Of a DNA stretch of 64,000 bases, positions 2,966-47,630 are shown one piece after another. The notes under the pieces were generated by a model, which saw only the letters and a program-made list of their open reading frames with translations, ran no database searches and had not been told where the DNA came from. The translations under genes and the position numbers were made by a program. Origin of the DNA: Scedosporium boydii (Eukaryota; Ascomycota; Sordariomycetes; Microascales; Microascaceae); the NCBI GenBank assembly GCA_002221725.1, contig NJFT01000089.1:62001-126000 (forward strand), in the 5' to 3' direction. Positions within the stretch are counted from its first letter, which is position 1. Each line of letters opens with the position of its first letter.

Positions 2966-4379
2966 ATAGTAGCCTGTGCTAAATGAAGTTTGATGCAATT
3001 TCTCCTCTGTCTCTGCCTTTCCGCTGCTAGTGGCTATCTAGAGGCCACATAGCTGAGGCATGCCGTGGGATGAGGCACAGAGCCCATTGCAGAGACTGGT
3101 TCCCTGAATCGTGGCAGTAAGGAAACGACGCTGCTTGGCACTGCAGACATGGAAGTGGCGATGAGTGTCTCGAGCATAGCTCCAATGGAACTTGCAATAT
3201 CAAGCAGGAATTTCTCGAATTGTCGGCAGCGGGAGATTGGGCCAATATTCCATAGGTGTTTGAATAGAGGAATGCCTAGACCTTTCTTGATCAATTAGTC
3301 ACTGTTGTCAGGTATTAAGGAGACCGTTTTAGCCAGGCTAATTCTGGCCTAGTTCTGTGACCTAAGAGGAACACTGGCTTCCTGATTCTACTTCACCCAA
3401 CAGAACGAAGTAAGCCCATGGTAACGACAGTTAACATGGCCAACAGTCTTGGATTCCGGAACGTGATCCAGGACGCAGGCGGCGGGGACATCGAACCACC
3501 ATCGGACTTTAGTGTCCTGTCGCCGTGGCTGACGAGCATTGGTAATAGTGGTGGGAAAAGGCTGCAGCTTCCGCTGACACTTTGGGGGAGGCTGGCAAGG
3601 CCGAGTCTATATCAGACAGCCCAAGGAAAACCCCTCTCGCATCTTGGTTCCGCGGTCCTTACTGGAGCTCACCAACATTTCCGTAAACAAGTAGAAAGGA
3701 AGCCTCCAAATAGGGGAGGCTTCAAGAATCATCTCAGTGCTCAAAGGGACACCCTGTGACATAAGTCGAGCTGGAATAGGCAGCTGGACGTCACCAATAA
3801 TAAGGATCAGTGAAAGAGTGAAATAAGAGAGTCAATTCAACTGTCAAAGAACTAATAACTGAAGAACTTAATGACTTGAGAAAACTTTTTTGGAAGAAGA
3901 AGAACTTGTCCCTCTGTCTGATGAGAAAGAAGAAAAGAAAAGAAATAACCATACTCTGGCCCCCATGGGCAAGGAAGAAAGTTCTTCCACTGCCGCTCTT
4001 CCACTCCACACGAGAACTGTGCCCCTCTCACACCAGTCACCTTATTCCCCGTCTCAATATCAGGATCCTTAGCTTCTTTAAGTAGTTGAGTATCCTTAGG
4101 TCTGGGTGGTAGGTCCGAAACTCTTATGATATAGATGGGGGTATTAATAGTGTAGAAAGTAGTTACTGGTTGAGGGAGGTGTTGGAGGAGAAGGTTGAGG
4201 AGGTTGATTAGGGGCAGGTTGAGGAGGTAGGAGTATATATGTCCTAATTGCCTAATGTCCGTCTGCTAAGGGAACCTTATAAGCCCAATAGATCCTACTA
4301 TTATTAACTTCTTTGATAGTTAAAGAACACACCAACTCCCAGAATATATGTTGTTCTAAGTTAGACCCCCCTTCTAACC
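2966..4379. other. No recognisable gene (decayed DNA)
   Basis: Only short reading frames occur, among them an 86-codon minus frame ending at 3034 and a 113-codon plus frame at 3418-3759; neither resembles a family I know. Purine-rich runs lie at 3880-3950 and a loose GGTTGAGGAGG tandem repeat at 4190-4235. Confidence 0.5.
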
Positions 4380-4950
4380 TATATCTTTAGTAAGACGTGG
4401 ATCCGGTATTAATTCTTCCATTGATCAACCTTTCGGCAGTCGGGACAGGCTGCCTCGTTCTCCCATCGGAGCAAGTAACCAAACCCATTGGTCATAATCT
4501 TCGCAATGGGCTGGGAGGTATCCCCTGTGGTCCACAGTGTAGAATCAAGGCTTCAATGTCGAGTTTCGCTGGGGCTCTTGCTAGACCATCATTGGGAAAA
4601 CATCGTTTGACCTGTTGAACCAAAGCCTGACTGCTCGGGTTCACCGTACTTTTCCTGAGAGAGAACTCCCATCGAGAAGACGAGGAAGAAAACCCAGATG
4701 CAGAGTTTGAGATCATCCTCGTCACCCTCATCAGGCTCGTTGTCAGACACATCGTCGGGGTCGTTGTCGGGGTCGCTCGAACCACCCGGGCCGTTCACAC
4801 CACTGGGCTCGCCGTTCGGTTCCGTTGGGTCATTGGGGCACCATTCGAATCATCACGTCCATCTAACGCTGCCTGAAAGGGGCACCGTTCGTATGAGCGG
4901 CTGGTGATAATGTCGAATCGAGTAAGGAAGGGTCCCATGCCTCGGCCAAA
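4380..4950 (-). repeat. Unidentified repeat, copy A
   Basis: Minus-strand remnant: a Ser/Asp-rich acidic stretch (about 4790-4690) followed by KLDIEALILHCGPQGIP (about 4560-4500). A second copy at 12.08-12.95 kb has the same order, an acidic segment and then KVDVQALALHYGPDGVP. The shared order and residues show a dispersed family, now without an intact frame. I cannot name it. Confidence 0.5.
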
Positions 4951-7674
4951 CGCTTAAATGGTTAGGAGATCGATTCTTGGTGGTATATATGACATAACGG
5001 AGGCCTTGTTGACCGGCGGCGGTTTGGGCATCGGTTTTGAGACAGTCTCGATGTCGATGCTGGCTGCAGCCCGTTGGCTCACGGGCGAACTGGTCTCCAA
5101 CAAGAGAACTCTGGCGAATCGTGTATCTGGAGGAGTTTGGTTTTTGTTGTTCTTTATAAAGCTCCTCAGGCTCTTGAGGCTACCCTTGTTTGGACTTTTA
5201 CACTATCCGCAGATATTAGGTAGACGTAGTCGTTCTATCCTCTCGACCGTGAACCTCGAGGGGTCTTCCGAGGAGAGTGGTGGCGAGAAAGGGCGGGAGG
5301 TCCCTAGGGCATGCCTTGTATTGAAATACATTCCGGGTGGTCTCGGATAGACTAGTACCGAATCGGTAGGGGCGTTCTTCAGGCAGTGCATCTAAGCCTC
5401 CTCTCAGGGGGGAGGGTAGGAGAATCGAGACGTCTGGACCTCAAAGCAGGTTCTTCCAGTGCTGAACGGGGTTATCGCTCATACCCGAATTATACGTGTT
5501 CGAGGGTTCCCATGTCGACGTCGACTTCCTTTCGTGATTTCCTTGCCGCTCTTATCCATCTCTCGGTGTTTTGTATCCTCTCGAGGGCGGGGAATATATA
5601 TATATGTCATGATATGTGAGCCCTCGAAGAGGGGTCTCGTGTTATTCTGGCATATGAGGCCGTTCTGAGCCCAACCAGGCGATGAAATCCGTCAATAGTG
5701 TGCTTGTCTATATCAGACACAGAAACCGGGAAACAGCCATGCTGAAGTACCGCGTAAGCCCATCTACAGTTTCGATAGATGATGAATATCTAATAGGAAA
5801 GGAATACTGCTCCTCAAGGATGCCAGGTTTCCACAATTGACAGAGTCAGATATCCAGGGGGATGTCAGGGGATAGAGCAATCCCTTACGTATCTTGGTAT
5901 GACTGCGGAGCCACGGGAATCAATGATTGGCACTCTTCATTGCAGCAAGGTGGTGAGAGGAGTAGACCTACGTGGCATGGATGGCGAAGAAAAGAGAAGG
6001 GAAAGTGAGAAGTTGAATGTCAATCCAGCAAGATCAAAAGTCTCCGAGAGACCCATTTGGGGCTCGTGGACGTCTCCGGACGGTAGCGTGAGTGGTGATT
6101 TCGTTACCCATCTGCGTTGAATGAGTCGCAGTATTGATCGGAGGATTTCCGAATATCTTATCTTACAGAAGGTGGAGGATATCGGTCAGGTCGAGACGGT
6201 GTTGATCATCGGCGTCGATATGACTATGTGAATTGCGTCACATTATTCCCGGCGAAGATGTTGATGAATGTCCCGTCTCGTCTCTTTGCAAGATGCGATT
6301 CATCTAAGATGATTCGACTGAACTTCCGATCCTCTATCCTGGTAGGCGTGAGTGTGTACCGTACGAGAGTCCCGTGGGCGGTGGCGCTGTCTTCGGGTTG
6401 AAGGATCCAAATCTGCGACATGCCAATTTCATGTCCAAAGCACACCGTCCCAGGTTTGCGAGCTTTCGTTTGGTTGGCGGTCTCTGTTTGGTTCGTTCGA
6501 TGATGGCTTGTCCTCAACAAACACAAAGCACGTTTCGGTCATCAGGATAGTGTGCACAGTCCCTCTGGCGCCAGGTGGAGTTTTGCATGGCTAGGAGTTA
6601 CCCGCTCCACGAGCAGTCTTCGCTTGTCGAGGAGGATTGCCTTCCTGCAAAATGGACAGGGTGGTTACCGCGGTGGCTATTGCGTTTATGGACAAGGGGG
6701 GCTGTGGCGTAAAGTTCGGCGATGTTGTTAGATCTTCAACGTCCCGAGATGTGATGGAGTTGGGAACTCGCTTCCGCGGTTCGGTCCCCGTCAGCCGCTC
6801 TTACGAGAGTTTCCGGCGGCGTATTTTCGTCGTCTCATCGACGGTGTATTTTTAGCCCCTTTTTATCTTGAAGATTGAGGGGCTTTTTTTCGAAGCTTGT
6901 TCGTCTGCCTCGCCGGATCGGGCGGCGGATTGGATTCGAATCCGGCTCGTCATCTTCCCAGCTGGGCAGCAATGATGAGGGTCAACGACTGCTCGTCCAT
7001 TGGTGGTAGTCGGGAGAGTTTCGAATCAATAGCCTTCTGTTCTAGGGCCGCCGGCAGGTTCAGATCTGGTTGCAACGAGGTCATCGTGTGTACCCGGGCC
7101 TTTATTAGGCGCCTCCACGGTTTTGCGAGTAGGATAGCGTACTAAATCAAGAGGATTCAAAATGGATCGAGGGGCCACAGGCCACTGATATTCTTGGTGG
7201 AGAGCAATTGAACGACGTAGGCCGCAAAGTGCAGATGGTCTGAGACCAAAGGGCCTTCATACTCAGTTCGAGGTCTGTTCCAAATATGGCCTGATATTTG
7301 TCTGGAAAGAAAGCAGGCTGTATATAGTGGGTTATTGCTATCCTGCTCCACCCTGTTCCGTTTTCCATGCCTGATACCTGAGAGACTGTGGACAAAGATT
7401 GACACGGTTGGCCAGACTCAAGGATTTGACGTCAAGCAGGGCCTGCGTGAGTGGTAGACAGTCGGAGTTCTACCGAATATATATGGCACCAGTTTCCAGT
7501 TCCGATGAGGGGATGGTAGCGCTTCAACAGGTTCGAATCGGCGAGCAGTCGCGCCTCGGGCTCTCGGCAGTCGCCGGTAGACCAACGAGCCGCAACGCCA
7601 GACTAAAGCATTAGGACTCGCTGGCAGGCTCCGAGGAGCTCCCAGGGGATCTAGCAAAAGGGAGAATTACCGCA
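4951..7674. other. No recognisable gene
   Basis: I find only short or low-complexity frames, such as a 130-codon hydrophobic plus frame at 4958-5350 with no relative that I know. A sequence near 6905-6960 resembles part of 9400-9470 (both contain a GGATTNGANTCCGGC core), so more repeat copies are probably present but too decayed to bound. Confidence 0.45.
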
Positions 7675-22546: not shown

Positions 22547-24026
22547 TAAATATTCGTATTCGGTGAGGACACACTTTCGATTGTCTCGTTCTTTACACTA
22601 GACGTGATAGAAGGGTTCGATGTTTCAAAGGAAATCGTTTCTGCAGGAGTGTTATCATATGTAGTTTGGATGCCGGCGATGCCTAGCCGGGGCGGGGAAA
22701 TGAAATCATACCTGTTCGGCGTCTTAGAACCCGGGAATGTTGAATAGGTTGCATATCGTTACTGATGAGGAGAGGATCTGGTACCGACATTTGGCACTTA
22801 TCAGTCTCGCCTCAGCTCTACCGCAGCTACTCATGAATGAAAAGTCCAGTCCTTTCCGTAAACGGTTGGGCTCGGGGACGAGCAGGGCTTGCAATCTCGG
22901 ATCACATGGCCCAATCTCTAACCTTGGGTCCGCATATTTCCTCCGGTACACGCATGCTGGCGATGAGGGCTAGGAGCAACGGAGAGTAGGACTCTTCGAA
23001 ATTTGACTTCAGGGAAATTGCTAGTGCAAAATTCGAATGGGATGTTATTGTCCCCGTTTCCCTGGTCTCTGAGGCACCCCGACTTGAGAGCGGCCACTCC
23101 ATTACCATCTATTAGGCGTAGGCCTGAGCTTGAGGTTAGAAGGTAATTGCATCCCTGTGGCTGCAGTAACGAACCGCGTACTTGATGCGCTATTGCGAAA
23201 GTGAGGAACTTGGCTGTCGAGCGGGTTGACGTCGGTCGGAGTGGCTATTTGGTCCCACCTTGTTTTGGAAGTGGTCGATATTTAACACCTAAGTTGTCGA
23301 GGATGGTATCGAGCGAGTCGGTGAGCTTGTAGTCAAGCCGTCTAGCCCAGAGAGCGGTTCCATACTTTAGTCTAATATGTTTGTTACACATAATAACTGA
23401 ATATACTTCCAGCCCTAACTTGGTCTCGTAGTCGGGTAACCGAAGTAAGTGGCCGCCTCCTGCTATTAACCAGACACTGCCCAGGACTGTATTTCTTCAG
23501 TAAGGCAGCTAATCCTCGGTCTTCCATTAGCCAACCCTTTTTAGTTTGGCGATCTCTGTGGAGTGTTTGGCTGACGGCAAGAGGCGAGATTAGCACGTAG
23601 GGGTGTAGTCTCCCCGAGAGACATTCCCCCTGGTGGTACTGTAACCACGCAGTGCGACGGCCAACCCCGCCCAGCCCTCGCCCTTGGGACTGATTTGGAA
23701 TAATCGCGAGGCGACGGCAGTCAGTGACCCTTCGCTCTCGAGGCCGCGGGTGCCCTTTTACTGTTAGGGCATCGCCAGTTCGCAAACTAGACTTGACTCT
23801 TTGAGTCAGGGATGGAGTGTGACGAGGCACGACGAGGGAATGATATTGCTTCGTGTTACCCACAACAAGGACAGACGCTCCGGGGAATAGTGTCGCAGCG
23901 GTCGTTTCATCCTTTTTTTGATCTTTATCCACGATCAAAAGTTGGACGACAATTCATCTCATCGCGGTCAACGAATCGGGATAATTTATCAATGGCGAAA
24001 GGCGTCCAACAAGAACAGCCGTCCGA
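22547..24026. other. No recognisable gene
   Basis: A 184-codon minus frame (23938-23384) is the longest; it shows no domain that I know. The rest is short frames. Confidence 0.4.
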
Positions 24027-24395
24027 TTGCAGCACCCACGCCATAATGAGGCTGCAGTACCGTTGCACTATATTGTCACCGGGGCCTCTGGCATATGGCT
24101 CAACTGCGACGAAGATGGCGGCGACAAGATAGTCGAGGATTTATTCTCTCGCCGAGCCTGGGACTATGGCGATATCGACAGGAGAATGGGCAGTAACCGC
24201 GAGGCGTATTTTCAGAGTATTTGCCTCAAGATAAAGTGGCCCGGATTTAGTGGGGACAAGCCGGAGAGCTACTTCCCCACTCATTCCTCTCCGGAGATGC
24301 GTAGCACCGACAAGGTTGCTGGTTTGGACACCTTCCTTGAAGACGACGATATTTCCTGGATGACAAAGGAGGTATCCATCGGGACGCGCTTCTAA
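24027..24395 (+). CDS. Small hypothetical ORF
   Basis: An open frame of 122 codons starting with ATG. Its composition is protein-like (acidic and aromatic residues well spread, for example DEDGGDKIVEDLFSRR and GLDTFLEDDDISWMTKE). I do not recognise it and see no neighbour that gives a clue. It may be the surviving piece of a larger gene, as its surroundings are decayed. Confidence 0.3.
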   Translation: MQHPRHNEAAVPLHYIVTGASGIWLNCDEDGGDKIVEDLFSRRAWDYGDIDRRMGSNREAYFQSICLKIKWPGFSGDKPESYFPTHSSPEMRSTDKVAGLDTFLEDDDISWMTKEVSIGTRF

Positions 24396-24840
24396 AGGAA
24401 TTAGACGAGTCGGCGAAACCTTCTCAGATATCCGAGTGGTCGTTTATTCTGGCTTCTGGTCTTTGCTTTTTTCTTGCTAAGTTGATATAACCATTGTAGA
24501 AGCAGGACCAGGCAACGAACCAGGGAGAATGCAGGTCTCCCGGTGCATGCTCGATTCTTCGGTGAATACAAGGTGAATTTTGATTCCTTACGTGCATCTG
24601 CCAAGCCGTCCATGATTCGAGGGAGAGTGTGAATGAGGCAGGGATTGCGTGCCGCCGGAAACTTATTTGCAGAATACACCTTGAGAGTCGATGAAAGTCA
24701 GCGTTGATAGGGATGTTTGACGTTGACCTCTAACTCACATGAACTCACATGACATGATTGCAGCCATTGATCTTTTCGACCAGCCTGAGGTAGGAGAAGG
24801 AAAGTTGGAGGAAAAATGTCCGTGATTAGAGGGCCATTTG

Positions 24841-25950
24841 AAAATCAGATCGGTAGGCCGCGGCAGGTAGACGGGGAATTGGTCTGAGTCGCCTGTATTC
24901 CCGTAGTTTCAGCATAGGAGCAGCATCGCTGAACGGCGATCATCATGCTCTGGGAGCCAGGCGCAAGGGTGAGACAGGCGACAGGAGGCTTTGAGTTCCT
25001 CCAACAGACTCTCCGCAGTCCGCACTGGAAATTGCGCTGAAAATCGTCGATGGATCTCTTCCCAATCCCTGGCCAGACCGTCCGCCATGAGTCGGAGAAG
25101 CAGAGCGTCTTCCTCCCCCGCAGTTCTAGAACTTCATGTTGTTTAACGAACTCTCTAAATTCGGGAGATAACAGGTCATCGGTTATGAAGTTGGCTTGTG
25201 CGCCGGTATCCCGTAGGGCCATAACTTTAGATAATTCTTGCTGGGGCATTGGATCTTCGTGGTCGATGGCGGATAAAGAGATCGTACATTGCACAGAAGG
25301 TAGGGCGAGCTCCTCGCGGTTGGCTATGATGAAGAAGTGTGGGTTGGCGGGAGGTGGCGGCGGGGTGTTGGTAATGTCGCCGAGGAAGTTCTGCTTCAAT
25401 TGGGCCCTCTCCTTCTGAGCCAAAGGCTTCGGCACACCTGCGGATTCTAAAAGACCCATAGTTGAGAACGCTCGCGTGTGGTAACCGAGGCGCGAGGCGC
25501 TCACGATATGCCAAGAGCACACTTCTCGCCCCCCATAAGTTGTGTCCGTGGCTGGATGGGCTCGTTCATTTCCTAGTCAGCGCCTTCGGGCAGGCCACAG
25601 TCCCATACAACTAGATCCTTCCCCTTACCCCGACCCCTATTAATGATGGCTACGGCGCAGAAATGCCACGCCTACTTGTCCCACTCATCGGTGTCAAGCC
25701 CAACCCATCTTGGGCTGTAGCTCAAGAGGGCGGCCCTGATGGCCCTGGACTTGTCGTCCTTGGCGCAGAGGAAACTATCGATGGTATCCCGACCTTCGGC
25801 GTAGGGAAGGCTCGGCGACCAGTTGGCCTCGTCGGCGCCATGGCGAAACGAAACGACGTTTGGGTGGATATAGATTAGTGAATCTTCTGCAATCTCCCTC
25901 AGTGTCTTTGAGAGCACATCCGCCGTCGCTGTGGGGTCGATAGTAGCCAT
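24841..25950 (-). pseudogene. Retropepsin-like aspartic protease gene, broken
   Basis: Minus-strand gene starting with ATG at 25950 (segments SLIYIHPNVVSF, EGRDTIDSFLCAKDDKSRA). It meets TAG at 25672, goes on in frame (AWHFCAVAIINRGRGKGKD), needs one frame change near 25,570, and then reads VCSWHIVSASRL into a domain with the aspartic protease signature ALRDTGAQANFITDD at about 25,220-25,170. DTGA is the catalytic motif of retroviral-type proteases and of their relatives in LTR-element Gag-Pol or domesticated genes. Dimer partners and substrates are unknown. The TAG fits TGG to TAG (G to A). No reverse transcriptase lies next to it, so it may be a domesticated or multicopy fungal gene that has died. 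Confidence 0.6.
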
Positions 25951-33633: not shown

Positions 33634-36600
33634 ATGATGCTAGCCGGATCCAAACACTGGGCTCTGTTCCAGGCCATCTCTCCCCTCTTCACATCCGACA
33701 TACCCTGGTCCTCAGCAGGGCGGAGCGACGCGGAAACTACTGCCGTCCAGGAAGCCGGGGCCTTGTTGAGGGCCCATATCAGCGAAATACCCTTCCATGT
33801 TCCGCAAGATGCTGCGTTCTCCGATCAGACCCTATCCGATTTTACAACAGCCCTAAAATATTTGCTCTTAACACTTGAAGGTTTAGTCCTGCAGAGCGTT
33901 CTCGATGACGCGACTGCTCTTGGGGAGGTAAGCATCTGGAATCGCATGCACAACTTCAGGTGGTATCAATCGCTCCTAGGCTAAGCTTCACAGAGTCAGG
34001 CCGACCCCGTCGAGGAATACCCCAAGCTCTCTGCGCTGAGCTTATTCATCAGAAATGACAACTTCTCCACAGTTTACTGTCATCGCTTTCTGTATCTGAA
34101 TCAGAGGGCTGCCTTGCTCAAGGCCACTCGCTCACGCGCCGAGGGCTCCTTGAAGAATGTGAAGAAACTGTTTCAAGACTCGGCATCCCTGTCTAAAGAT
34201 GGGTTCGTTGCTGGGAACCATCTCCCGCCATCATCTCAACCTCAATACAGCCAAATATTTAGGGACTGCTCAGATACCTTGTTTAACACCCTGGAAAAAA
34301 CCCTGCGGCCATGTACATCAATGTCCTCTAAACACAAGGCCTTCTTTCACCTGAAGGCTTCGCCCAATCCTACAATTGGTGGTTCTTCCGCGGAAGTGGA
34401 TCTATTATTAGCATTATGCCCTCAGGGGAACCCTTGCCAAGAGGTTCGGTTCACCGTTCCCAACCATACGTAAGTTGTGCAAAGATGCAAAGATTGATGC
34501 ATGGAATCACGGACAACTCACCAAATACAGCGGTTCGATTCCGGCTGCGATGGCCGAATCTCACGAGCGACTTATCGAGGACGTCTGCCAAGTTGCCCGC
34601 GAGGCATACGAACGCCAACAAGTTGTGAGAATATACGTCCACGACAACAAACTGCACGACACTTCTGATTTCGACGAGGAGCCGAGCAACCCAGAAGCGG
34701 AACACACAATATCAATTTCTTCCCTCCTAGACAAACAGGTCTTGCGGGACCGCTTCAAGTTTCCGCTTGTTCACAAGAGAATTCTAGCCCTAACTCTCGC
34801 CCGAAGTCTATTAAACCTTTACGAGGGGCCGTGGATACAGACAGACTGGTCTGCCGAGCATGTTCTCTTTGCATATGACACTAATAAGAGCCGCGTTTAC
34901 GATATCCACCAGCCATATTTGCCTTGTACGCTCTCGTCGGAGCATGAATATCAATCAACAGTTAGCGATCCTCTACACAACAACCCATTGATCCTCTCTT
35001 TCGGAAGACTGCTCATGGAAATGGATAAAGGGGAACGTATCGCGATCACAAAAACCGTGAGGTCAAGACCGAGCCTCTACCGAACACTTGTGGCCGAATT
35101 GGATGACTGGGGCAAGGAGCTTCTAACTTCATACTACACCCAAGCTGTTGAGGGATGTTTGAAGTTTCCGAAATGGCTCCAGGCGAACAGGGGCATGAGC
35201 CGGGAACTTGCCTACCGCAAAGTCATCTTAGAGAAGATTCTGCATCCCCTGGAGCTTGAAGTTAGGACGTTTTCAAATCAAGGAGCGGGATCTCGAGATA
35301 TAGATTTGATTCACAATAACATAGCGCCACCGGACATCGCTAGCCCTTTGGTCCGTACCTCGAGTATACGGGGTTCAACAGTCGCCGGTTACACCGCCGT
35401 CTCAGCAAGAACGGATGCTCCCACGACCACCATGGGCAGAGTGTCCAGGAGCGGGGCAATGACCTCCTCTAGAATAAGCCTAGAGCAATCACAAACGAGT
35501 CACAGCACTAGGTCCTCCACATTAACTATTAACGCGTCGCGTTGCCCTCCAACTTCACTGCGCACCCACTCCTCCTCAACCACCAACGCCTCTCTAGCCA
35601 CGCGCTCCTCCCCAGTTAGTCGTCCCTCTCTGGCCAGCCGCGTTTCTCCAGAATCGACCCGAAGATTTGAACAACCTGCGCGGCAGCCGAGTCCAAGTGT
35701 CAGGTTTTCTTCGACCTCACGGCGCACTCAAATCTCATCTCGGCCCGAAAACGCAAGAGACATGCCGAACTTTGTACGCACATGTACCTTCATGTTCAGT
35801 GAGAGTGAGATGGAGCTATCTGAAGACAAGTTGAGTTTACCACTGGCCGACCCTACTCCACTAGGATCAATAGCATTGACTCGACGCAGGAAAACCCGTG
35901 CCAAAGAATTTCTGAAGAGATTTGAGGACTTTCGGTTATGTAACATCCACCGGTGTTCGAAGACAGCAAGAGTGCGGATTGTTGTCTTAGATACGGGCCT
36001 CTCTCACAATGACATCCGAATCCGTGCTCTGAAACGAGTCATAAAGGACGGCTGCCGGAAGAGGGAGAACATAAACTACAGAGACCCCATCCGGGAGGAG
36101 CGAAATTTTGTCGCCGGTAGTCCCGATCACGATGAAGATGGCCATGGAACCCATGTCATCGGGTTGCTGCTCACCCTTGCGCCGGAGGCAGACTTGTATG
36201 TTGGCAAGATCTCCCGAGGAAAGAAGTGCGAGACCCAGGACCAGGGGATGGCTGCGGTAAGTATTTTGCATTGGATCCTCATGCGTGGCTATAACTCGGA
36301 CGAAGTACTAATTGTTCTCTTCTATAAGGCGCTGAGGTGGGCCGTCGATGATGTTAAAGCGGATATTATATCCATGTCGTTTGGATTCGAAGATGATGCA
36401 GGCTGGGATGATGATATGGACAAAGCGATTAAGGAATCCTTTACCGCCGGTAGGATCGCATTCGCAGCTGCATCAAACTACGGTGGGAACTCATGTAGAA
36501 CGTATCCAGCCAAGGCTGAAACGGTTTTCTGCATTCACGCGTCAGACGGCCACGGCAACCCGAGCGGATTAGATCCCACACCGATACGTGGCGACTACAA

Positions 36601-36922
36601 TTTTAGTACGCTTGGAGTGGCCGTGCCGTGCGGCGATACGGGAGGCAGGGAGATCTTCAAGACGGGCACGTCGTATGCCACGCCGGTCGCTGCAGGCCTT
36701 GCTGCTAACATCATAGACCTCGCTGACTGGTTGGCCGAGGCGGGAGAGCTGACCTCCGCCCAAACGAAGAAGCTGCGCTCATATGAAGGCATGAGGAGCG
36801 TGTTTAAGCTTATGGCCCCCAGCCGTCGACAAGACTACGATTATGTCGCGCCTTGGAACCTGTGGAACAGGAGAGTAGAGGAAAGAATAATATGGGGCAA
36901 AATTAGAGAGAAACTCTCTTAA
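33634..36922 (+). CDS. DUF7580-like protein with C-terminal subtilisin (S8) protease domain
   Basis: Four exons: 33634-33927, 33994-34469, 34531-36256 and 36329-36922. Introns are 66, 61 and 72 bases. The sum is 3090 bases, 1029 residues. The first half (to about residue 520) looks like the fungal DUF7580 region (ILALTLARSLLNLYEGPW, WIQTDWSAEHVLF, NPLILSFGRLLMEM). A Ser/Thr/Arg-rich linker spans about 530-665. The S8 domain starts near 735 with all catalytic residues: Asp in VVLDTG (about 743), His in DGHGTHVIG (about 797), Ser in GTSYATPVAAG (about 946). No signal peptide, so it acts in the cytoplasm. This layout resembles HET-Q2-type proteases, which cleave a neighbouring gasdermin-like protein; its own neighbour ends 72 bases away, tail to tail. 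That role is inferred. The start is the first ATG of the conserved frame. Confidence 0.85.
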
Positions 36923-36994
36923 ACATTCGATAGATGGGCTGGAAGATACCCCAAAGAACATAGTAATGGATTTATGATACTTGGAATTGAAACA

Positions 36995-37840
36995 TTATCC
37001 TAGAACTCTGGTACAGATCCACATAGATTCATCTTGATCGTCGAAAACTGTTCCTTCAACTGTTTGCACTAGGTCATCAAAATCGTCTTCGCCAATTTCG
37101 TCTCCATCCAGATCTAACTCCGGTATATCATCCTCAGGGAAGGTCCGGGAACCATCTTGCATAGTGGCACCTTTGGTATGGACTTGCTGTTCGACCCTGC
37201 CATTTTTATATCTAATCTTCCTAAACCTCAAAGCAACGACGCAATCGTCACCTCGTGTGAAGGACATGCCCTGCATGGCGGTTCGAGCGAGCTCGATCTT
37301 CGGGCCAAAGACACCAATCCGCCCAATGACGCTAGCAGCGCCGAGGCTCCGGGTGGACGTATGCCGGGAGTCAGCCGCTACTTCTCGCCCGACCTTGATC
37401 CCCGTGATCATATACACGGGCACGCGGAACTTAGTCGTTCGCATGTACGCACGCACTTCCGACCCTGCCATGCTGGAGCGGATATAATCCTCAGTGGGGT
37501 TGAAGTACGTGGTCTCGAGACATCCGAACCTGTACTCTGTATCATCATCCTCCTCGACTCCTACCTCGGTGCGCGCTCCGAGGCCTAGCGTTAATGCCAA
37601 AAACTTGGCCCAAACGCCGAATTTGCCATGAAGGAGATCATTTCGAGTCGCCGTGAAGCCGTCCATCCTGTGTGGACCGTAGATCTCGTTCGAGGAGATT
37701 GGGAGGTGGTCCGCGATGTTTATGGACTGCAGAAATGTCGGGTCCTCGAGGATGTGGCCGAGATCAATAGGCCCAGCCGGTGGCGGCGGAGTGGTTAAGT
37801 CCGGCACGAAGACGAACGTTTTTCTGATTTTGGCCATCAT
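36995..37840 (-). CDS. Hypothetical protein, candidate gasdermin-like partner of the S8 protease
   Basis: Single-exon gene, 281 residues, starting at a double ATG (37840 or 37837). The N-terminus reads TFVFVPDLTTPPPPAGP, then IDLGHILEDP. The middle has alternating hydrophobic segments (KFGVWAKFLALTLGLG, VPVYMITGIKV). Near residue 198-212 it reads DDCVVALRFRKIRYK, like the last strand of a gasdermin pore domain (a proline/glycine-led strand then V-A-Y-R-L). A strongly acidic tail follows (about 235-270), which could be a removable inhibitory end. Length (fungal gasdermins are about 260-280), tail and convergent S8 neighbour all fit the HET-Q1/HET-Q2 plan. I did not search; plain hypothetical is the safe alternative. 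No signal peptide. Confidence 0.6.
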   Translation of the reverse strand: MMAKIRKTFVFVPDLTTPPPPAGPIDLGHILEDPTFLQSINIADHLPISSNEIYGPHRMDGFTATRNDLLHGKFGVWAKFLALTLGLGARTEVGVEEDDDTEYRFGCLETTYFNPTEDYIRSSMAGSEVRAYMRTTKFRVPVYMITGIKVGREVAADSRHTSTRSLGAASVIGRIGVFGPKIELARTAMQGMSFTRGDDCVVALRFRKIRYKNGRVEQQVHTKGATMQDGSRTFPEDDIPELDLDGDEIGEDDFDDLVQTVEGTVFDDQDESMWICTRVLG

Positions 37841-38592: not shown

Positions 38593-40067
38593 TTATAGCT
38601 TTTGCCCGAAGCGCACGATAAATTTATGCAGTGCCTGCCACCCCAGTGCAATAACGACAACTATCGAGAGGAGCGGTATAGCCGTCACGAAATATACCCA
38701 AAAGAGCCTTTCTCCCGGGCCATAGCCTTCTGCCATGCTAAAGACACTAGCGACCCACGAGAGCGGCACAAAGATGAGGGCGATGTAAGTCAAGCGCTGG
38801 ACATTCGAGGCTTCTCGTAGCTGAACCATTGACGTTGCTACCGGCAGCATTTGCTCGAGGGAGCGGCTCTGGTGATCAATTTGGCCGCGAATGAACTCTA
38901 CATCCTTGAGTACCATCTTCCACCGCATTTTTTCACCTTCGCGCTCTAACCAACACTCGATGAAGTCGGAAAGTAGGGCCAACTTATGGTTGCTTTGCTT
39001 AGTTCGACGGCGCCAGCGCTGTAGGTCGATGATGTCGTCATCGTGGAGTCGATCTTGAATACTGCGCAAAGAATACTCGTAGTGCTTGACATAGCGGCTC
39101 AAGACGTGAGTGTACATCATCCACTCAGCTATAACTACCCTGACCGGGTAATATCCTAGCTCCAAGATAGTCGGATATGATCTTGAAAACTGCACAGGGT
39201 TGTAGGTGAGGTAATGTAACAGCGCAGGAAGCATTGAGCTATGATCCCACTGTCCGGCATTCGTCGAGGAGGTCCGAAACGAGGAGAACGATATGGGTTG
39301 CGAGAAGTCTTCGAACCCTCCTTGTAGGACTTTGCTTTGAAATGCTCTGCAGGACCCAGAGGTAGATGTCTCGATTACACGGCTCACAGACGGGTCTATC
39401 AGCATGACACCTGGGTCAAGTTAGCCTAAGCCAGTCGTAAGATCGACCTTGGGTATAGGAGAGGCATACAAATCCAAGTACAATCTAGTTTCTTGACAAG
39501 GATAGAACAGCAACCGCGTGCGAGACCCAGCTGACGTTCTTCAATAGGTGGCAGTCGACGCACGTTGCGGTGGATGTTTGATGCAGTTCTTAACGTGTAC
39601 GGAACGCTCTTGTACAGGCCTGCGCTACCAAGGTCAATGACCTGTTGATAGTGAATGTTGAGATAGCCCCTTTCCGCGAACAGCGATGGAGGGAAAGCCA
39701 AGGATGGCGGAGGTGGCGCCTTTTCAATGCCACTGAAATCGGTGCTTATATGGCTAGCAAAGAATAAGGGATCTATATCCAGTTGTTCTCCCAGAATTTT
39801 CATGATATCCGGCTTGACATCTTCGACGAGCAGAATACGGCCTAGTACCGTGCGGTCTATAGAGCGAAGCTTTTCAAGTTCCTCTTCGGCGAACGGTGCT
39901 GGCTGCGTTGCGGGCCCTCTATCTCCAGGATAATCGATAGAGAAGATGGTACTTTTGGCAAGCAAGGGTTTAGATGAGAGGTACTTTGCTAGCCCGGCAA
40001 GGCATGGGTTGTTTCGGTATCGTGATGCTACGAAATCGCTGTACGATGGGATCTTCTTGGCTTCCAT
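38593..40067 (-). CDS. CorA-like Mg2+ transporter-type membrane protein
   Basis: Two exons, 40067-39470 and 39410-38593, with a 59-base intron (GTATGC...CAG) that keeps the frame; 1416 bases, 471 residues. The N-terminal two thirds is soluble and mostly helical (RSIQDRLHDDDIIDLQRWRRR, IRGQIDHQSRSLEQMLPVA), like the stalk of CorA channels. Two membrane helices close the protein: TYIALIFVPLSWVASVFSM and FWVYFVTAIPLLSIVVVIAL. The GMN selectivity motif between them is not kept (SMAEGYGPG instead), as in many fungal CorA-like proteins, so magnesium transport is doubtful. Such proteins often neighbour NLR and HET genes. Start: first ATG, followed by a typical KIPSYSDFVASRYRNNPCL opening. Confidence 0.75.
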
Positions 40068-40503
40068 CCCTTAGAAAGCTTGCTGCCAAAAAATATTGGT
40101 CGTATGGAGGCTATCACAGAAGTTAACGAGAGGAAACTCCGAATCATAGAAAGCCTTGAACAGACATTGAACTCGAGCGATGAGTAGGGTCCAACCCCGA
40201 CGTCCGAGCCTGGTGGACTTTTTCCACTTTTCCCTGGCTCGTATTCCGGCTTGGAGCTGGGCGCTTATTTTTTCCACTTGAATTAAGCCACAGCTGGGCT
40301 TGGCGCTCCCATTGGCTATCTCTACCTCGTACGTTGTCGCATCATTCAACAGGATTCAGCTGGAGGCAGGGATGCATATGAGGTCCTTCGTACCCCTCCT
40401 CATTTCACCTGCCCTCTACCGTCCCCTCTCCCGTTCCTTGTTCGGGCTTTCTCTAGGATAGCTTCTGTGCTTGATGAGGTCACCACCCGCAGCACCATGA
40501 AAC
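40068..40503. promoter_or_regulatory. Divergent intergenic region
   Basis: About 440 bases between the starts of the CorA-like gene and the NLR. It contains a 92-codon minus frame (40349-40071) of no known family. Probably promoters. Confidence 0.3.
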
Positions 40504-41592
40504 ATGGAGTTAGCATCCAGACAAGACTGTGATGTTGATTCCATTTCGGGCGACATAAGAATACCTTTACAATCGAAAATCGACGACATTCATTACGCAA
40601 GTGCACAAGATGGGGATCTCAAGGATTTCTTCATCAAGGCAGTCTGGCCCAGGCTAGTGTCGGATTACGAAGGCCTTGTAGAAGAAGTGAAAAGGCTGTG
40701 CCGCGATGAACTGCAAAGGCGAGGGATTGCGTTCTGGATCTACGGACGAGTGAAGGCGGCGGAATCAGTTGAGAAGTCTATTGAGCGTCGACAAGCCAAA
40801 CGCACCAGCAAAGGTGAAGAGGCATACAAATGCGTGGAGGAAATATTCCATGATGTGCATGATCTCGCCGGTATCCGGATCGTGCTCAGGTTCGACTCGG
40901 ACACGGAAACGGTTCGCGATTTTATCCAGGATCGATTTAAAGTCCGGGGTTCGACGGAATTCAAGCCTGACCGCGAGGTGTCTCCGGATCAGCGGTGGAT
41001 TCCACGATTCGGATCGTACGCAACAACAAACTATCACGTCAGACTCGGAAGCCAAGACGTCGGACCGCCACTTGCCCAGTTCCAGGGCATTTTGTTTGAG
41101 ATTCAGCTTACTGATATTGGGAACCACCTACACAATGAACTTGCACACCCCTTCTTGTATAAAGGAACGCCCTCGGATCTCAGCGCCGGGGATGGTATCG
41201 TCCTGGATATAACTCGTGGGCTCGCCCGAACATATGCGCTTTGCCTGATGTACTTCAAAGACAAGCAGGGAAATAAGCTTGGCAAAAGCGATCTTGAGGA
41301 TGAGCTAGGGCCGGTGTTGGCGAAGGCGATGGAGCCCGATGAGTCGCACGCTTCGATACAAGGCTCAAACTTACCGTCGCCAGAGGCTACGATAGACGCG
41401 GCATCTGAATTTATCGAGAATTTACTCCAGAGAGCCGGGAAAGATATGGGGCTCAAGGGGATTGGAAATTTACTTCCACTCCCACCGCAGGGCTGGGAGT
41501 CACTCACTGACCTCAAACTGTGGCTTGTTCGCGGTCTTGAGTGGGTCCTCATTATTCAACTCGCCTTCAGAATCTTGAAGCTAATGTTTTGA
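40504..41592 (+). CDS. RelA/SpoT-domain N-terminal part of an NLR
   Basis: Open frame of 362 codons. It carries a (p)ppGpp synthetase-like RelA/SpoT domain, no HD hydrolase: WIYGRVKAAESVEKSI (the R-x-K nucleotide-binding element), HDLAGIRIVLRFDSD, RFGSYATTNYHVRLG, and FEIQLTDIGNHLHNELAHP, which keeps the E-x-Q of the synthetase fold. The end is hydrophobic (LEWVLIIQLAFRILKL). RelA/SpoT is one of the known effector domains fused to the front of fungal NLRs. Here the frame stops at a TGA (41590) just before a NACHT-WD40 frame. Removing one T from TTTT (41587-41590) fuses the two. It is therefore best read as the head of one gene, either broken or misread, rather than an independent gene. Whether it makes alarmones in the cell is unknown. 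Confidence 0.82.
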   Translation: MELASRQDCDVDSISGDIRIPLQSKIDDIHYASAQDGDLKDFFIKAVWPRLVSDYEGLVEEVKRLCRDELQRRGIAFWIYGRVKAAESVEKSIERRQAKRTSKGEEAYKCVEEIFHDVHDLAGIRIVLRFDSDTETVRDFIQDRFKVRGSTEFKPDREVSPDQRWIPRFGSYATTNYHVRLGSQDVGPPLAQFQGILFEIQLTDIGNHLHNELAHPFLYKGTPSDLSAGDGIVLDITRGLARTYALCLMYFKDKQGNKLGKSDLEDELGPVLAKAMEPDESHASIQGSNLPSPEATIDAASEFIENLLQRAGKDMGLKGIGNLLPLPPQGWESLTDLKLWLVRGLEWVLIIQLAFRILKLMF

Positions 41593-44500
41593 GGATAGTA
41601 AGATCCGGAATGCGGACCAACCCACAGTCAAGCTTCCAACCGTCCGCAGTGCTTCATACGATAGTGGGGAGGACGAGCACCTTGCTTTTTGCCAAGCCGG
41701 CACCCGGGTGGGTGTACTGGAAGAGATCAAGAACTGGATATACGGACCCGAAAAGGAAACGATCTTGTGGATATACGGCACTGCGGGCATTGGAAAATCG
41801 ACGATTAGCCGAACAGTTGCGCATAGGTGTGACGAAATGGGCGTGCTAGGGGCCAGCTATTTCTTCAAGCGAGGGGAAGACGACAGGAATGATCCACGTC
41901 GTATCATTCCGACTCTAGCAACACAACTAGCAGTTTCAGTTCCAGGGTTTAGAAAGGCTCTAAGAGACTCCCTAGACGACCCCCAAAACGAAGGGATCGA
42001 GAACAAAGCTATGAGAAAACAGTTTAACGCTCTTCTATTGAACCCAACTGGCCGGGTTGTCGAAACCACACTAACTAATGATGCATCGTCGCGAACGCGC
42101 CCCGTTGTTATTGTTATCGACGCTCTAGATGAGTGCGACTCCGAAATCCATGAGACCCTTCTATTGTCGCTACACAGATTAGGCTCCATTGAAAATATCC
42201 GATTCCGCGTTGTGCTTACTAGCAGAGAAACTCACCAAGTCGAGGTCGTTGTACGAAAACTCGCTACACAACAAGCATGTCGCACTCTCCCCCTGCATCA
42301 AAAGTTCCAGGAGCAAACGCAGGTTGATGTCTCCAAGTTTTTCGAGGCACAATTCAAGCGTATTGCAAAGGACAACTTCCTGGATGGATGGCCCAGCCCC
42401 AGCGAGCTCAAACGCGTAAACGAGCTCGCAAGCACTCCTTCGCCACTCTTTATCTACGCAGCGACGCTTTGCCGCTACCTCGATGACGGGACTGGGCGAC
42501 AGCGTCCCAAAACTCGATTGGAGCTTTGGCTCAAACAGCAGGATCGCAGGGCTTCACAAGCTTCACAACTTCATCAGATTTATCTCCCAATATTGGACTA
42601 CATTTTCTTTGGTAGACGCAAGGCCAGTGACAAACCAGAGCCGCTTGACGAGAGAGAACAACTAGAGCTGCGAAAAGTACTCGGCGCCCTTGTCTTCCTT
42701 GCTACTCCGCTCCCTTCTCGAGCTATTGGGGATCTACTAGGTCTTGAGCAAGGGGATATTGAGAATTACTATCTCCGCAATCTCCACGCAGTCGTATACG
42801 TTCCAAAAGATCCGACAAGACCTGTACGCCTTTTCCACCAGTCATTTAGAGATTTCCTTGTTGGTTACAACGGAGAACACCAAGAGTACTTTCAGGTCGA
42901 TAAAATCAAGGCCCATAGGTGGCTTGCACGAGGGTGTTTAAGTGTCATGCGTAGCCTACTGAAACGAGACATTTGCAATACCCAAGATCCTGGCATTCTG
43001 AGGCAGGAAATAACAGACGAGGCCATCAATAAGCATATACCGCCGCACCTCCGATATTCCTGCCTTTTCTGGCTCCACCATCAGCTGGTTCTGGACGTGG
43101 AAGCTGTGCAAGAGTTCATCTGCACGCATCTTTTGCACTGGATGGAATGCATGTCCATTCTAGGTCAGTACGGGGACTGTGTAAGGCTGCTTAGACGTTT
43201 GCTCGCACTTTGCCAGGTAGGTCGACAACCGGTATAATAACCCTGGCTCCATTCCCTGCGCAGCTTTCATTCCTAATATCAAATTGTTTCAGTCAACCCC
43301 ATCCCTTGGCGTAAATCATGATTTCTGCCAGCTACTAGAGGATGCGGACCATTTTGCCACGATCCATGCAACAATAATGCAGCGTGCGCCGCTGCAAATA
43401 TATGCCTCAGCACTCGCGTTCACCCATAAGTCGAGTCCGGTGAAAATGCTTTTTTGGGGACAGAGATGGCCATTTCTCAAAATCGCCGAGGGCATCCAGC
43501 AGTCTTCCTGTCGCACGCTGGAAGGCCATACTCGATCGATTACATGTCTCGCCTTTGCACCCAACGGGAAGACAGTCGCGTCTGCGTCGGCTGACTGCTC
43601 AATACGCCTCTGGGATACAGATCTGGGCTTGTGCAGAATGTCCCTCGACACAGACTCCACTCCAACAGACCTTGTTTTTTCCTCTGACGGTACAACGCTC
43701 ATGTGTGTTGCCGGACACTGCGTGTTGAGTTGGGATATTGTAACCGGCACGCTCCAGGATAATGACCTTCCCGATCTTCCGGAAGAAGGGCATCAATCCT
43801 TCTCACCCGACGGCCGGATACTGGCCGTTGTTACACCGTGCACGTGGCCTGTGGAAATCGGCCTTCGATTTCTTGACCCCTTCGATGATATTCATATTTT
43901 GGACGTCGCTAAACGTACTCTCAAAACCACCGTAACCACTAGCAAAGTGGATCTATTAGCATTTTCTCCAGACGGCACTCGGTTAGCATGCAGCTCGATT
44001 GACGGATCAATATCTCTCTGGAACATATCAGCTGAGGCCACTCAAAAATGGTGTTTGAGGCCTTTACGCTCCCCTTACAGCATTGAAGGAATTGCTATTT
44101 CCTCCAACAAGGTCATCTTGTCCTCGAATTATATGCACGCCATTCGAATCCTAGACTCTGTTAGCGGCAAAGTTGATCGGATGATTCACCTCCCTGGAAT
44201 ATTTCCAACAAGCATGATATTTTCATCGCACGATGAAACCATAGCAGGAGCCTGCGAGGACGGGAAAATACGCATCTGGGATAGTGCAAGGCCCGAGAAT
44301 GGGCTTGTGCTTGGAAGCGCACACAGAGTAGCCCGGATGGCTTGCGCCCCCAATGGACGAATGATTGCATCGGCTTCAGGTGACCACGCAATACGACTTT
44401 GGACTGTTCCAGCCGGCTGGAGAGATATTAAACAGCCCTCTTATCGACCCAATGATCGTCATGCTAGGTATATCGCCCTTTCACGAGACCATGCAACAAT

Positions 44501-46283
44501 TGCGTTAAGCTTGGGGACCACTATTCAACTATGGGATGCCGAGACAGGCCTTGAGCGGCTCCGTCTGGTAGCAGATCATCGGAAACCAGTGGACTCCGTT
44601 GCTTTCTCCCCGGAAGGTAGAGATGTCGCCTCATCTTCATCAGGCGTTGTCTGCCTCTGGGATACGAGAACGGGTGAACAGAAGCAAGCCGTGACCTCTC
44701 CTAGCGGGAATACGAGTCGCACAGGCCCAGCATTTGACGCTGATTGGACTGTCTGCGACGTTGCCTTTTCACCTAATGGTCAAGTTATCGCTTGCGCATC
44801 TGAGAGGGGACTACGACTCTGGGACGCCAAGACAGGCATCTTTCAGTCCACGCATAAATTCTCCAACTTTAAATACTCGAGCGGGACTCACATTGTATCA
44901 CGGGATGGGGGACTTGTGATAACATGGAGCGAATATGAGTCGTTCTTCTGGGATACAGGAAATGAAATAGTGAACGGCCATAATAATCTCAGGACGTCGG
45001 AATCTAGAAAGATCGCTATCTCTCCCGACGGCACCTGGTTGGTAATTCCAATCGGGGAATTCATTCTCCTTACGGATTCCGCTACGAGAACTCGCCGTTC
45101 CTGGATCTGGAGGGGCTACCCATTCCTGCAAGTGTTACAATTCTCATCAGACAGCATGACACTCGCCACGACAGACAAGAATACGATTCACCTATGGAGC
45201 GCTGTTACTGGAACCCACCTTCGTACGCTACAAGGCCATGAATTTTGGGTCAACGCCGTTACCTTCTCTCCTGATAGGAAGAAATTGGCATCAGCTTCGT
45301 ATGACTTGACTGTCCGACTCTGGGACCGCGAGGCAGGAAATCTGCTATATACATTTCATGATACGGGGAGTTTGATCCACTTGCTTGCATTCTCGCCCGA
45401 TAGCAGGACACTTACCTGCTGCTCTCACAAATCCATTTGTATTTGGGACTGTGATAACGGTAGCGTGCTATTGGCACATAAGCTCGATGATGGTGAGACG
45501 GATAACGCTGTCACCACAATATCACCAAGAGGCGGGAAGGTTGCCTTGGCTTCAAGCAACGGAAGGCAGTGGGTGGTCAACATATGGGAGACATCAGTCA
45601 ATCTCCGCCATCGGCCCACTGTGGTTGAAAGCGACAAAATCCACGGACTGGTTTTCTCGGCCGATGAAACCACACTGGGAGTATCTTTGTCAAATTGTAC
45701 GCAGCTCTGGGATGTGGCGACTGGCCAAATTAGGAACAGCATTCCTGTCGCCGGATACCACCGGCGAATAGCACTTTCACCTGATGGCAAAGTGGCCGCT
45801 CTAATAGGTCATTTTTCGTTTAAGCTTGAGCTCTGGTACACTGGGGCGAACCAGCTCAAGCTAATGGGGCAATTTGGGTTCAGACAAGGATACGTCGCTG
45901 AATGCTCATTTTCGCCAGTGGGGACGACGCTTGTCATGAAAGGGCCAAGTGTTTATGACTTCTTAATCTATACAATCGGAGACTTCGATATCGAGAAGCA
46001 AATGCCCAGCCGGAGTAGGCTTCAACTTCCACGCCACCAGCGTCAGTATTTCCAGAATTCAGTGCCAAATAGCGATATCGAGGTCTCCAATCCCTTCTGC
46101 GGCCAAAGCGACCTGAAGAACAAGCTCATGGCCAGCGGGGAATGGGTGTTCCGCCAGGGAAAGCGTGTGTTTTGGCTCCCCAAGGATTACAGGGTTGAGT
46201 GTAAGGCTATGGACGATCATACTGTTGCCTTAGTAGGTCCGGACGGAGATTTAACAACCTTAAGATTCGACTTCAGGCAGTAG
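41585..46283 (+). CDS. NACHT-WD40 part of the NLR (STAND family)
   Basis: Exons 41585-43216 and 43293-46283, with a 76-base intron (CAG/GTAGGT...TTTCAG/TCA), frame kept. The open frame begins right after the RelA/SpoT stop and has no good ATG of its own before the NACHT domain. It runs through the usual NACHT lead-in (ASYDSGEDEHLAFCQAGTR), Walker A GTAGIGKST, IPTLATQLA, Walker B VVIVIDALDECD and the sensor LTSRE. A winged-helix-like region follows. The second exon holds about 19 WD40 repeats (SITCLAFAPNGKTVASAS..IRLWD is the first). They differ clearly from each other, unlike the near-identical repeats of HET-E-type genes, so this is not a fast-evolving HNWD. With the RelA/SpoT part and one T less, the product would be 1900 residues. 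Role by family: cytoplasmic non-self sensor. Confidence 0.85.
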
Positions 46284-46389
46284 CTTAATAATACTATATA
46301 TTCACTCTTCTTCTTTCTGATGTATAAGTCGACATAACTCTCCTATGCCGATACTCCCCTACACCACACAGGTGCGGCCATTCTTTACT

Positions 46390-47630
46390 CTCCAGTTACA
46401 AGGTAGAAGGCACAAAGGAGACGCTGTTGGGCTCGTACGCTATCATCAGATACCGGTCCTACAGATCGCAGCGCACCCATAAGATATGTGACGAAAAACA
46501 CCGTATTCGTTGGCCTCTCCAAGCCACCCAGCTGAATCCTCCGTCGTATTCTACCTCGACATCTAGGCACACGTTGCGCCTCTGCTCCTCCGATGGTGTG
46601 ATCTCGATACGGCACGCCGTCATGCCTCGGGCTCTTTTCCCAAAGCGGGTTGATATGAGGGGCCGGTCGATCGCAAGTCCCACTCCGGGACTGTGTACCT
46701 ATTCCCTTGAGCATGCGGCATACTCAATACGGCCGCGGACCACAACCTCCACGAAGTTGGTACCGCTGGTGTCGCCATCGTTGGCAACCCCAATCAGATT
46801 GTCGACCGTGGTGGAATCCGCCAAGGCTATCGTCTCGGCGTAGGTCGCCAATATTACATCGGTTTCACCTCCTATGAGGTAGCAGACAATAGACACGGCC
46901 GTAGAGTCGTCTAGTGAACATGCTAGTCTCATAAGCCACAAGGCTCCGAAGCCGTGAACCCCCCAATAGCCGCCTTGCTGCATCTCAATGACTTGCCGCA
47001 TATCAGTAGCTTGCTGTGTTTTAACGCATCGCGAGGGCGTAAGGGAGCTAAGGCGTCTATAGTCTGATTCTTTCCGCACGTAGTAGACGATACTTGTGTA
47101 AGTTGGGCCTCCCGCGATGAGCGTCCCCGAGGCGGAGAACGTCATGGCATGGGTATTTACGCAACTCGCCTCGTACCGGAGTACGGATCGCCTGGAGGCA
47201 GCGTCGAAAAGGAGAATCAACGGGGGATTGGTGTGTTTCACCAGAGCAAACAGCATGCCATGAGAGTTGAGCGCCAGTGCGGTGATGTACACCGGGAGCG
47301 TCGTCTCGACGTGCGTCCAGTCTCGAAGGTCTACCAGAAACATCCTGCGTTTTATGGCCATGAGGCCAAGCCTCGAGTCGGGGGAGAACGCCCAGCTGCT
47401 ACAGCTAGGCTTGCGGCAGCGGAAATCCTCGAATCAAAGACAAGAAGTGCCCCGGAATTGCAGCTTGACCGACGCAGTTGCCATTTCCCAGAGGTCGGCT
47501 CGGTCCGCACGCTGGGTTCCGCAGAGTTGAAGACGGCGACGACGAGCAAGCGGATCCACCAAACTCGGACATAGGACCAAAGAAGGCGTGCGTGCGTGTC
47601 GATAAAATGGCAATTCCTTCGCGTGCCCAT
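46390..47630 (-). pseudogene. WD40 repeat gene, decayed
   Basis: Minus-strand remnant. One frame reads DLWEMATASVKLQFR, crosses a TGA, then WAFSPDSRLGLMAIKRRMFLVDLRD and THAMTFSASGTLIAGG: the strand pattern of WD40 repeats, as in NLR C-termini. Upstream the match moves to another frame (RLLVVAVFNSAE), so there is a frameshift as well. It then runs open to 46,699, and protein-like sequence continues in a second frame to 46,459. No NACHT domain is found: upstream of 47,630 lies a sugar-transporter fragment. Probably the tail of a second WD40 or NLR gene that was cut and has decayed. Confidence 0.6.

Follow-up and report, generated by a model that had tools for sequence, protein, structure and literature searches.

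A protease gene and a gasdermin gene lie tail to tail

In the window, i.e. the whole 64,000-nucleotide stretch of Scedosporium boydii DNA analysed here, a gene for a large S8 protease carrying a DUF7580 domain is paired with a gene for a fungal gasdermin (Table 1). We propose, with a probability of about 0.85, that the two genes form a self-directed cell-death module in which the subtilase activates the gasdermin by removing its tail. The domains of both proteins are identified, the catalytic motifs are in place, the small protein has the gasdermin fold, and a second locus in the genome shows the same linkage. The two stop codons are separated by 72 bases (36923-36994), the tail-to-tail layout that the initial annotation had described, and its pairing of protease and gasdermin is upheld by the same layout at the second locus.

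This kind of pair and its mechanism are already published. In Podospora, the 388-aa S8 protease HET-Q2 cuts the 278-aa HET-Q1 after F238, taking off 40 residues, according to passages of PMC10989679. Passages of PMC10197012 place about 80% of fungal gasdermin genes in clusters with protease genes, and about 63% with S8 genes. Those of PMC12881547 describe gasdermin-linked proteases as multidomain sensors in which a protease domain can be joined with repeats or with predicted kinase-like domains, and the stimuli activating such sensors as an open question.

Table 1. Features of the two gene pairs and of neighbouring genes. Positions are those of the window, except in the last row.
Feature	Position	Strand	Basis
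DUF7580-subtilase S8 gene, 1029 aa	33634..36922	+	Spliced model, GT..AG introns; Pfam matches
Model exons	33634-33927, 33994-34469, 34531-36256, 36329-36922	+	Three GT..AG introns of 66, 61, and 72 bases
DUF7580 (PF24476), residues 183-503, spans second intron, kinase-like	34246..35269	+	Pfam 190.1 bits; model and Foldseek
Peptidase_S8, residues 738-978	35972..36766	+	Pfam 70 bits; motif positions
Fungal gasdermin, 281 aa, one exon	36995..37840	-	RCD-1 by phmmer, profile, Foldseek, VIA-align
Acidic tail at the C-terminus (residues 235-281), putatively inhibitory	36998..37138	-	18 D/E among 47 residues, net charge -17
Codon of Phe234, candidate P1 of protease cut	37139..37141	-	Suggested by F/L frequency and HET-Q1 F238-like spacing
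CorA-like membrane protein adjoining gasdermin	38596-39405	-	Pfam
RelA_SpoT, NACHT/NPHP3_N, and WD40 repeats in three successive overlapping frames	40504-46280	+	Pfam
Second DUF7580-S8/gasdermin pair	L003 (G000:C96:107000-116500), about 3090-7307	tail to tail	Stop codons 131 bases apart

The protease combines DUF7580 with a complete subtilase domain

The S8 gene model is a predicted splicing from DNA, and both its ends are supported by P0019, an annotated 722-aa protein of Scedosporium apiospermum whose first and last residues agree with the model. P0019 is 91% identical to the S8 protein over a local alignment that spans 38% of the query, and is without some internal stretches of the 1029-aa model. 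The start at 33634 given by the initial annotation agrees with both the spliced model and this relative. An 815-aa open reading frame is ruled out as the entire product, given that upstream exons complete DUF7580 and extend to that start. The third intron (36257-36328) stays in frame and the relatives P0018 and P0019 both translate the stretch, so it is a predicted feature only; were it coding, the protein would have 1053 aa. In the paralogue on contig C96, stops break the frame at the matching place and an acceptor is found there too, which favours the third intron in the window gene.

Both domains score far over their Pfam cut-offs (21.8 bits for Peptidase_S8, 27 bits for DUF7580). The complete set of S8 catalytic residues that had been noted near the C-terminus is present, i.e. 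Asp744 (VLDTG), His795 (DGHGTH), Asn882 (AAASNYGG), and Ser947 (GTSYATP), which we take to belong to the usual subtilase motifs. As such, the neighbour is an S8 protease as first annotated, and is not a bare subtilase, since DUF7580 is attached. Pfam returns no family match for residues 1-182 or for the Ser/Arg-rich linker. DUF7580 and Peptidase_S8 are both present in all six relatives found among 7993 proteins scored; those named come from S. apiospermum, Thelonectria olida, Xylaria scruposa, Xylaria curta, and Fusarium lateritium.

Multidomain S8 genes adjoining gasdermin genes are known as Q2L proteases, and kinase-like fusions are mentioned in passages on them (PMC10197012; PMC12881547); here, too, an S8 domain with intact catalytic residues is found 72 bases from a gasdermin gene. 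HET-Q2 differs, when compared by description, in having 388 aa vs about 1029 aa with DUF7580 here. CHAT is ruled out as the local protease, the sole CHAT match found in the genome being on contig C117, which holds neither of the gasdermins found, at 23968-24984 (-) and inside an open frame of 1183 aa.

The small protein is a gasdermin related to RCD-1

The 281-residue open reading frame occupies the predicted place, with the VVALRFRKI strand, expected near residue 205, at residues 201-209. A single phmmer search with this one sequence reaches RCD-1-2 (E = 3.6e-7), and the profile built on it matches both RCD-1-2 (9.5e-19) and HET-Q1 (1.5e-9). The predicted structure matches the RCD-1 fold in Foldseek and VIA-align, in a model with a mean pLDDT of 52.1 in which 148 of 281 residues fall under 50 and the tail is not resolved. 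We find that RCD-1 of Neurospora crassa is its closest solved relative in both sequence and fold. Searched against the PDB with the single gasdermin sequence, up to E = 10, RCD-1 is found and the HET-Q1 chain is not; HET-Q1 is likewise not among the VIA-align matches listed. Pfam, PADLOC, and NCBIfam give no match to the protein.

The small protein is thus a gasdermin, and the gasdermin-like nature suggested in the initial annotation holds by sequence, by profile, and by fold. The phmmer and profile matches rule out a protein outside the known gasdermins. The accompanying suggestion of a divergent branch not obvious by sequence fails, because one phmmer search is enough to find RCD-1 and the branch is not hidden from sequence searches.

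At the very end of the gene (36995-37020, -), the residues past MWI are unlike those of P0001, its 93% identical relative, and the two proteins appear to end as though in different frames. Three ENA open reading frames of 365-383 aa (P0029, P0030, and P0031) each combine an acidic linker with a gasdermin-like domain and a patatin part in one frame, the latter corresponding to the first 48 positions of the patatin phospholipase profile. Judged by their reading frames, these are perhaps a gasdermin-patatin fusion; such a fusion was not found among the patatin passages listed from two reviews, which covered all 7 places in one and 12 of 44 in the other.

The pair occurs twice in the genome

Three single-protein searches of the 442 contigs all find the same second gasdermin (C96:113620-114231, -), for a total of two in the genome, a count that may miss diverged copies. 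It shares 30% identity with the window gasdermin over 223 columns and matches the gasdermin profile in hhalign with a probability of 99.7%. By itself it reaches RCD-1-1 only at E = 0.083, and its membership rests on the genome searches, the identity, and the hhalign result. The adjoining DUF7580-S8 gene carries ILDTG, DGHGTH, AANQGG, and SGTS motifs. Stops in its frame, both between the two domains and within S8, are taken for introns, and the gene may also be a broken copy.

Merged by position, the genome has at least 19 S8 and at least 12 DUF7580 loci. The two domains coincide at only 2 places, each adjoining one of the 2 gasdermins found. With random placement, both gasdermins would have an S8 locus no more than 2 kb away with a chance of about 3e-6. 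Together with the Pfam scores, this second pair of the same kind makes the observation more than a matter of chance.

DUF7580 weakly resembles kinases in its predicted fold

A model of DUF7580 built on 17 alignment rows has a pLDDT of 80.4, and the best 50 of its 1669 Foldseek matches are all kinases or kinase complexes. These matches are weak, i.e. none of the 1669 reaches E = 0.001 (best E = 7e-3), with TM values of about 0.3-0.4. HMMER, with its filters on, finds no kinase family in the window domain at E up to 10. In a by-eye reading for HRD and DFG motifs, PWIQTDWSAEHVLF stands at the expected catalytic loop and DFG is absent. The genome also holds L008, a DUF7580 relative, which scores 29.6 bits with Pkinase (cut-off 31.7) and 23.5 bits with PK_Tyr_Ser-Thr (cut-off 23.1). 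We read DUF7580 as a degenerate kinase. The name was not found in the literature searched, and it does not appear in the relevant passages of PMC10197012 and PMC12881547.

Other genes in the window

Within the window, 15 open frames of at least 220 aa were kept. The region with RelA_SpoT, NACHT, and WD40 matches, about 2.7 kb away from the gasdermin gene, probably encodes a single NLR whose effector is RelA/SpoT. RelA/SpoT is a minor NLR effector class in the passages of reviews consulted. TRF finds no repeat array at window positions 40000-47000.

The acidic tail and the proposed activation by cleavage

The strongly acidic tail reported at the outset is confirmed, with 18 D/E residues among residues 235-281 and a net charge of -17. 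The charge is negative in all 18 alignment rows, ranging from -9 to -20. Of these rows, 11 have F or L as residue 234; 2 others have V, 2 have Q, and the remaining 3 carry G, K, or S there. The profile alignment places Gly224 of the window gasdermin on residue 228 of the HET-Q1 chain, and 10 residues further lie Phe234 here and F238 in HET-Q1, provided that chain numbering equals protein numbering. The spacing, so counted, is about equal, making Phe234 a candidate P1 residue for a cut by the neighbouring S8 protease. The pair further resembles HET-Q1/HET-Q2 of Podospora anserina in gasdermin length (278 vs 281 aa), in its short C-terminal tail, and in its S8 partner, and differs in that cleavage is demonstrated in Podospora, whereas the window gasdermin has a candidate site only. 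An inhibitory role of the tail is proposed because of the analogy to HET-Q1.

The protease probably switches on the gasdermin by cutting its tail. We infer the steps from sensing to cleavage and its site, pore formation, and death. Specifically, the N-terminal pore-forming domain (about residues 1-225) would be restrained by the short acidic tail, and the N-terminal part of the large intracellular activator, with DUF7580, would control the C-terminal subtilase. A non-self fusion or an intruder, sensed by the other domains of the S8 protein, would be the cue for the subtilase to cut after about Phe234, and the freed pore domain would oligomerise in the plasma membrane and kill the cell. Tail cutting is favoured because of the HET-Q2/HET-Q1 precedent, the repeated linkage, the complete S8 motifs, and the acidic tail.

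The nearest solved relative points to a different route. RCD-1, as described in passages of PMC12881547, needs no proteolysis and becomes active when two antagonistic allelic variants co-exist, a route unlike the tail cutting proposed here. The window gasdermin could likewise form a mixed pore without cleavage once hyphal fusion brings two allelic variants together, with the protease serving elsewhere. We consider this improbable, as the 47-residue acidic tail resembles the part cut off HET-Q1 and both gasdermins found adjoin an S8 gene. It is more improbable still that DUF7580 is the decisive switch, its kinase-like part binding or modifying the gasdermin and the protease cutting another target. 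DUF7580 does accompany S8 in both pairs and in every relative found, but it shows neither visible kinase catalytic motifs nor a Pkinase match, and the S8 motifs are complete, as expected from published S8 partners, which cut gasdermin tails. Chance linkage of an unrelated intracellular subtilase, conceivable where S8 genes are as numerous as in fungal genomes, is practically negligible when both gasdermins found have the same arrangement.

Within the tail-cutting module, DUF7580 might gate the attached protease as a sensor or decoy of the pseudokinase type, such that tampering with the bait leads to gasdermin death, a suggestion that we regard as rather doubtful. Plant pseudokinase decoys offer a parallel for the guarding of a kinase-like bait.

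Overall, a clear protease/gasdermin module, with two copies in one genome, joins those known, and the kinase-like part of its protease receives a Pfam name, DUF7580. If the decoy reading were true, DUF7580 would represent a sensor class for fungal gasdermins, paralleling the pseudokinase decoys of plants.
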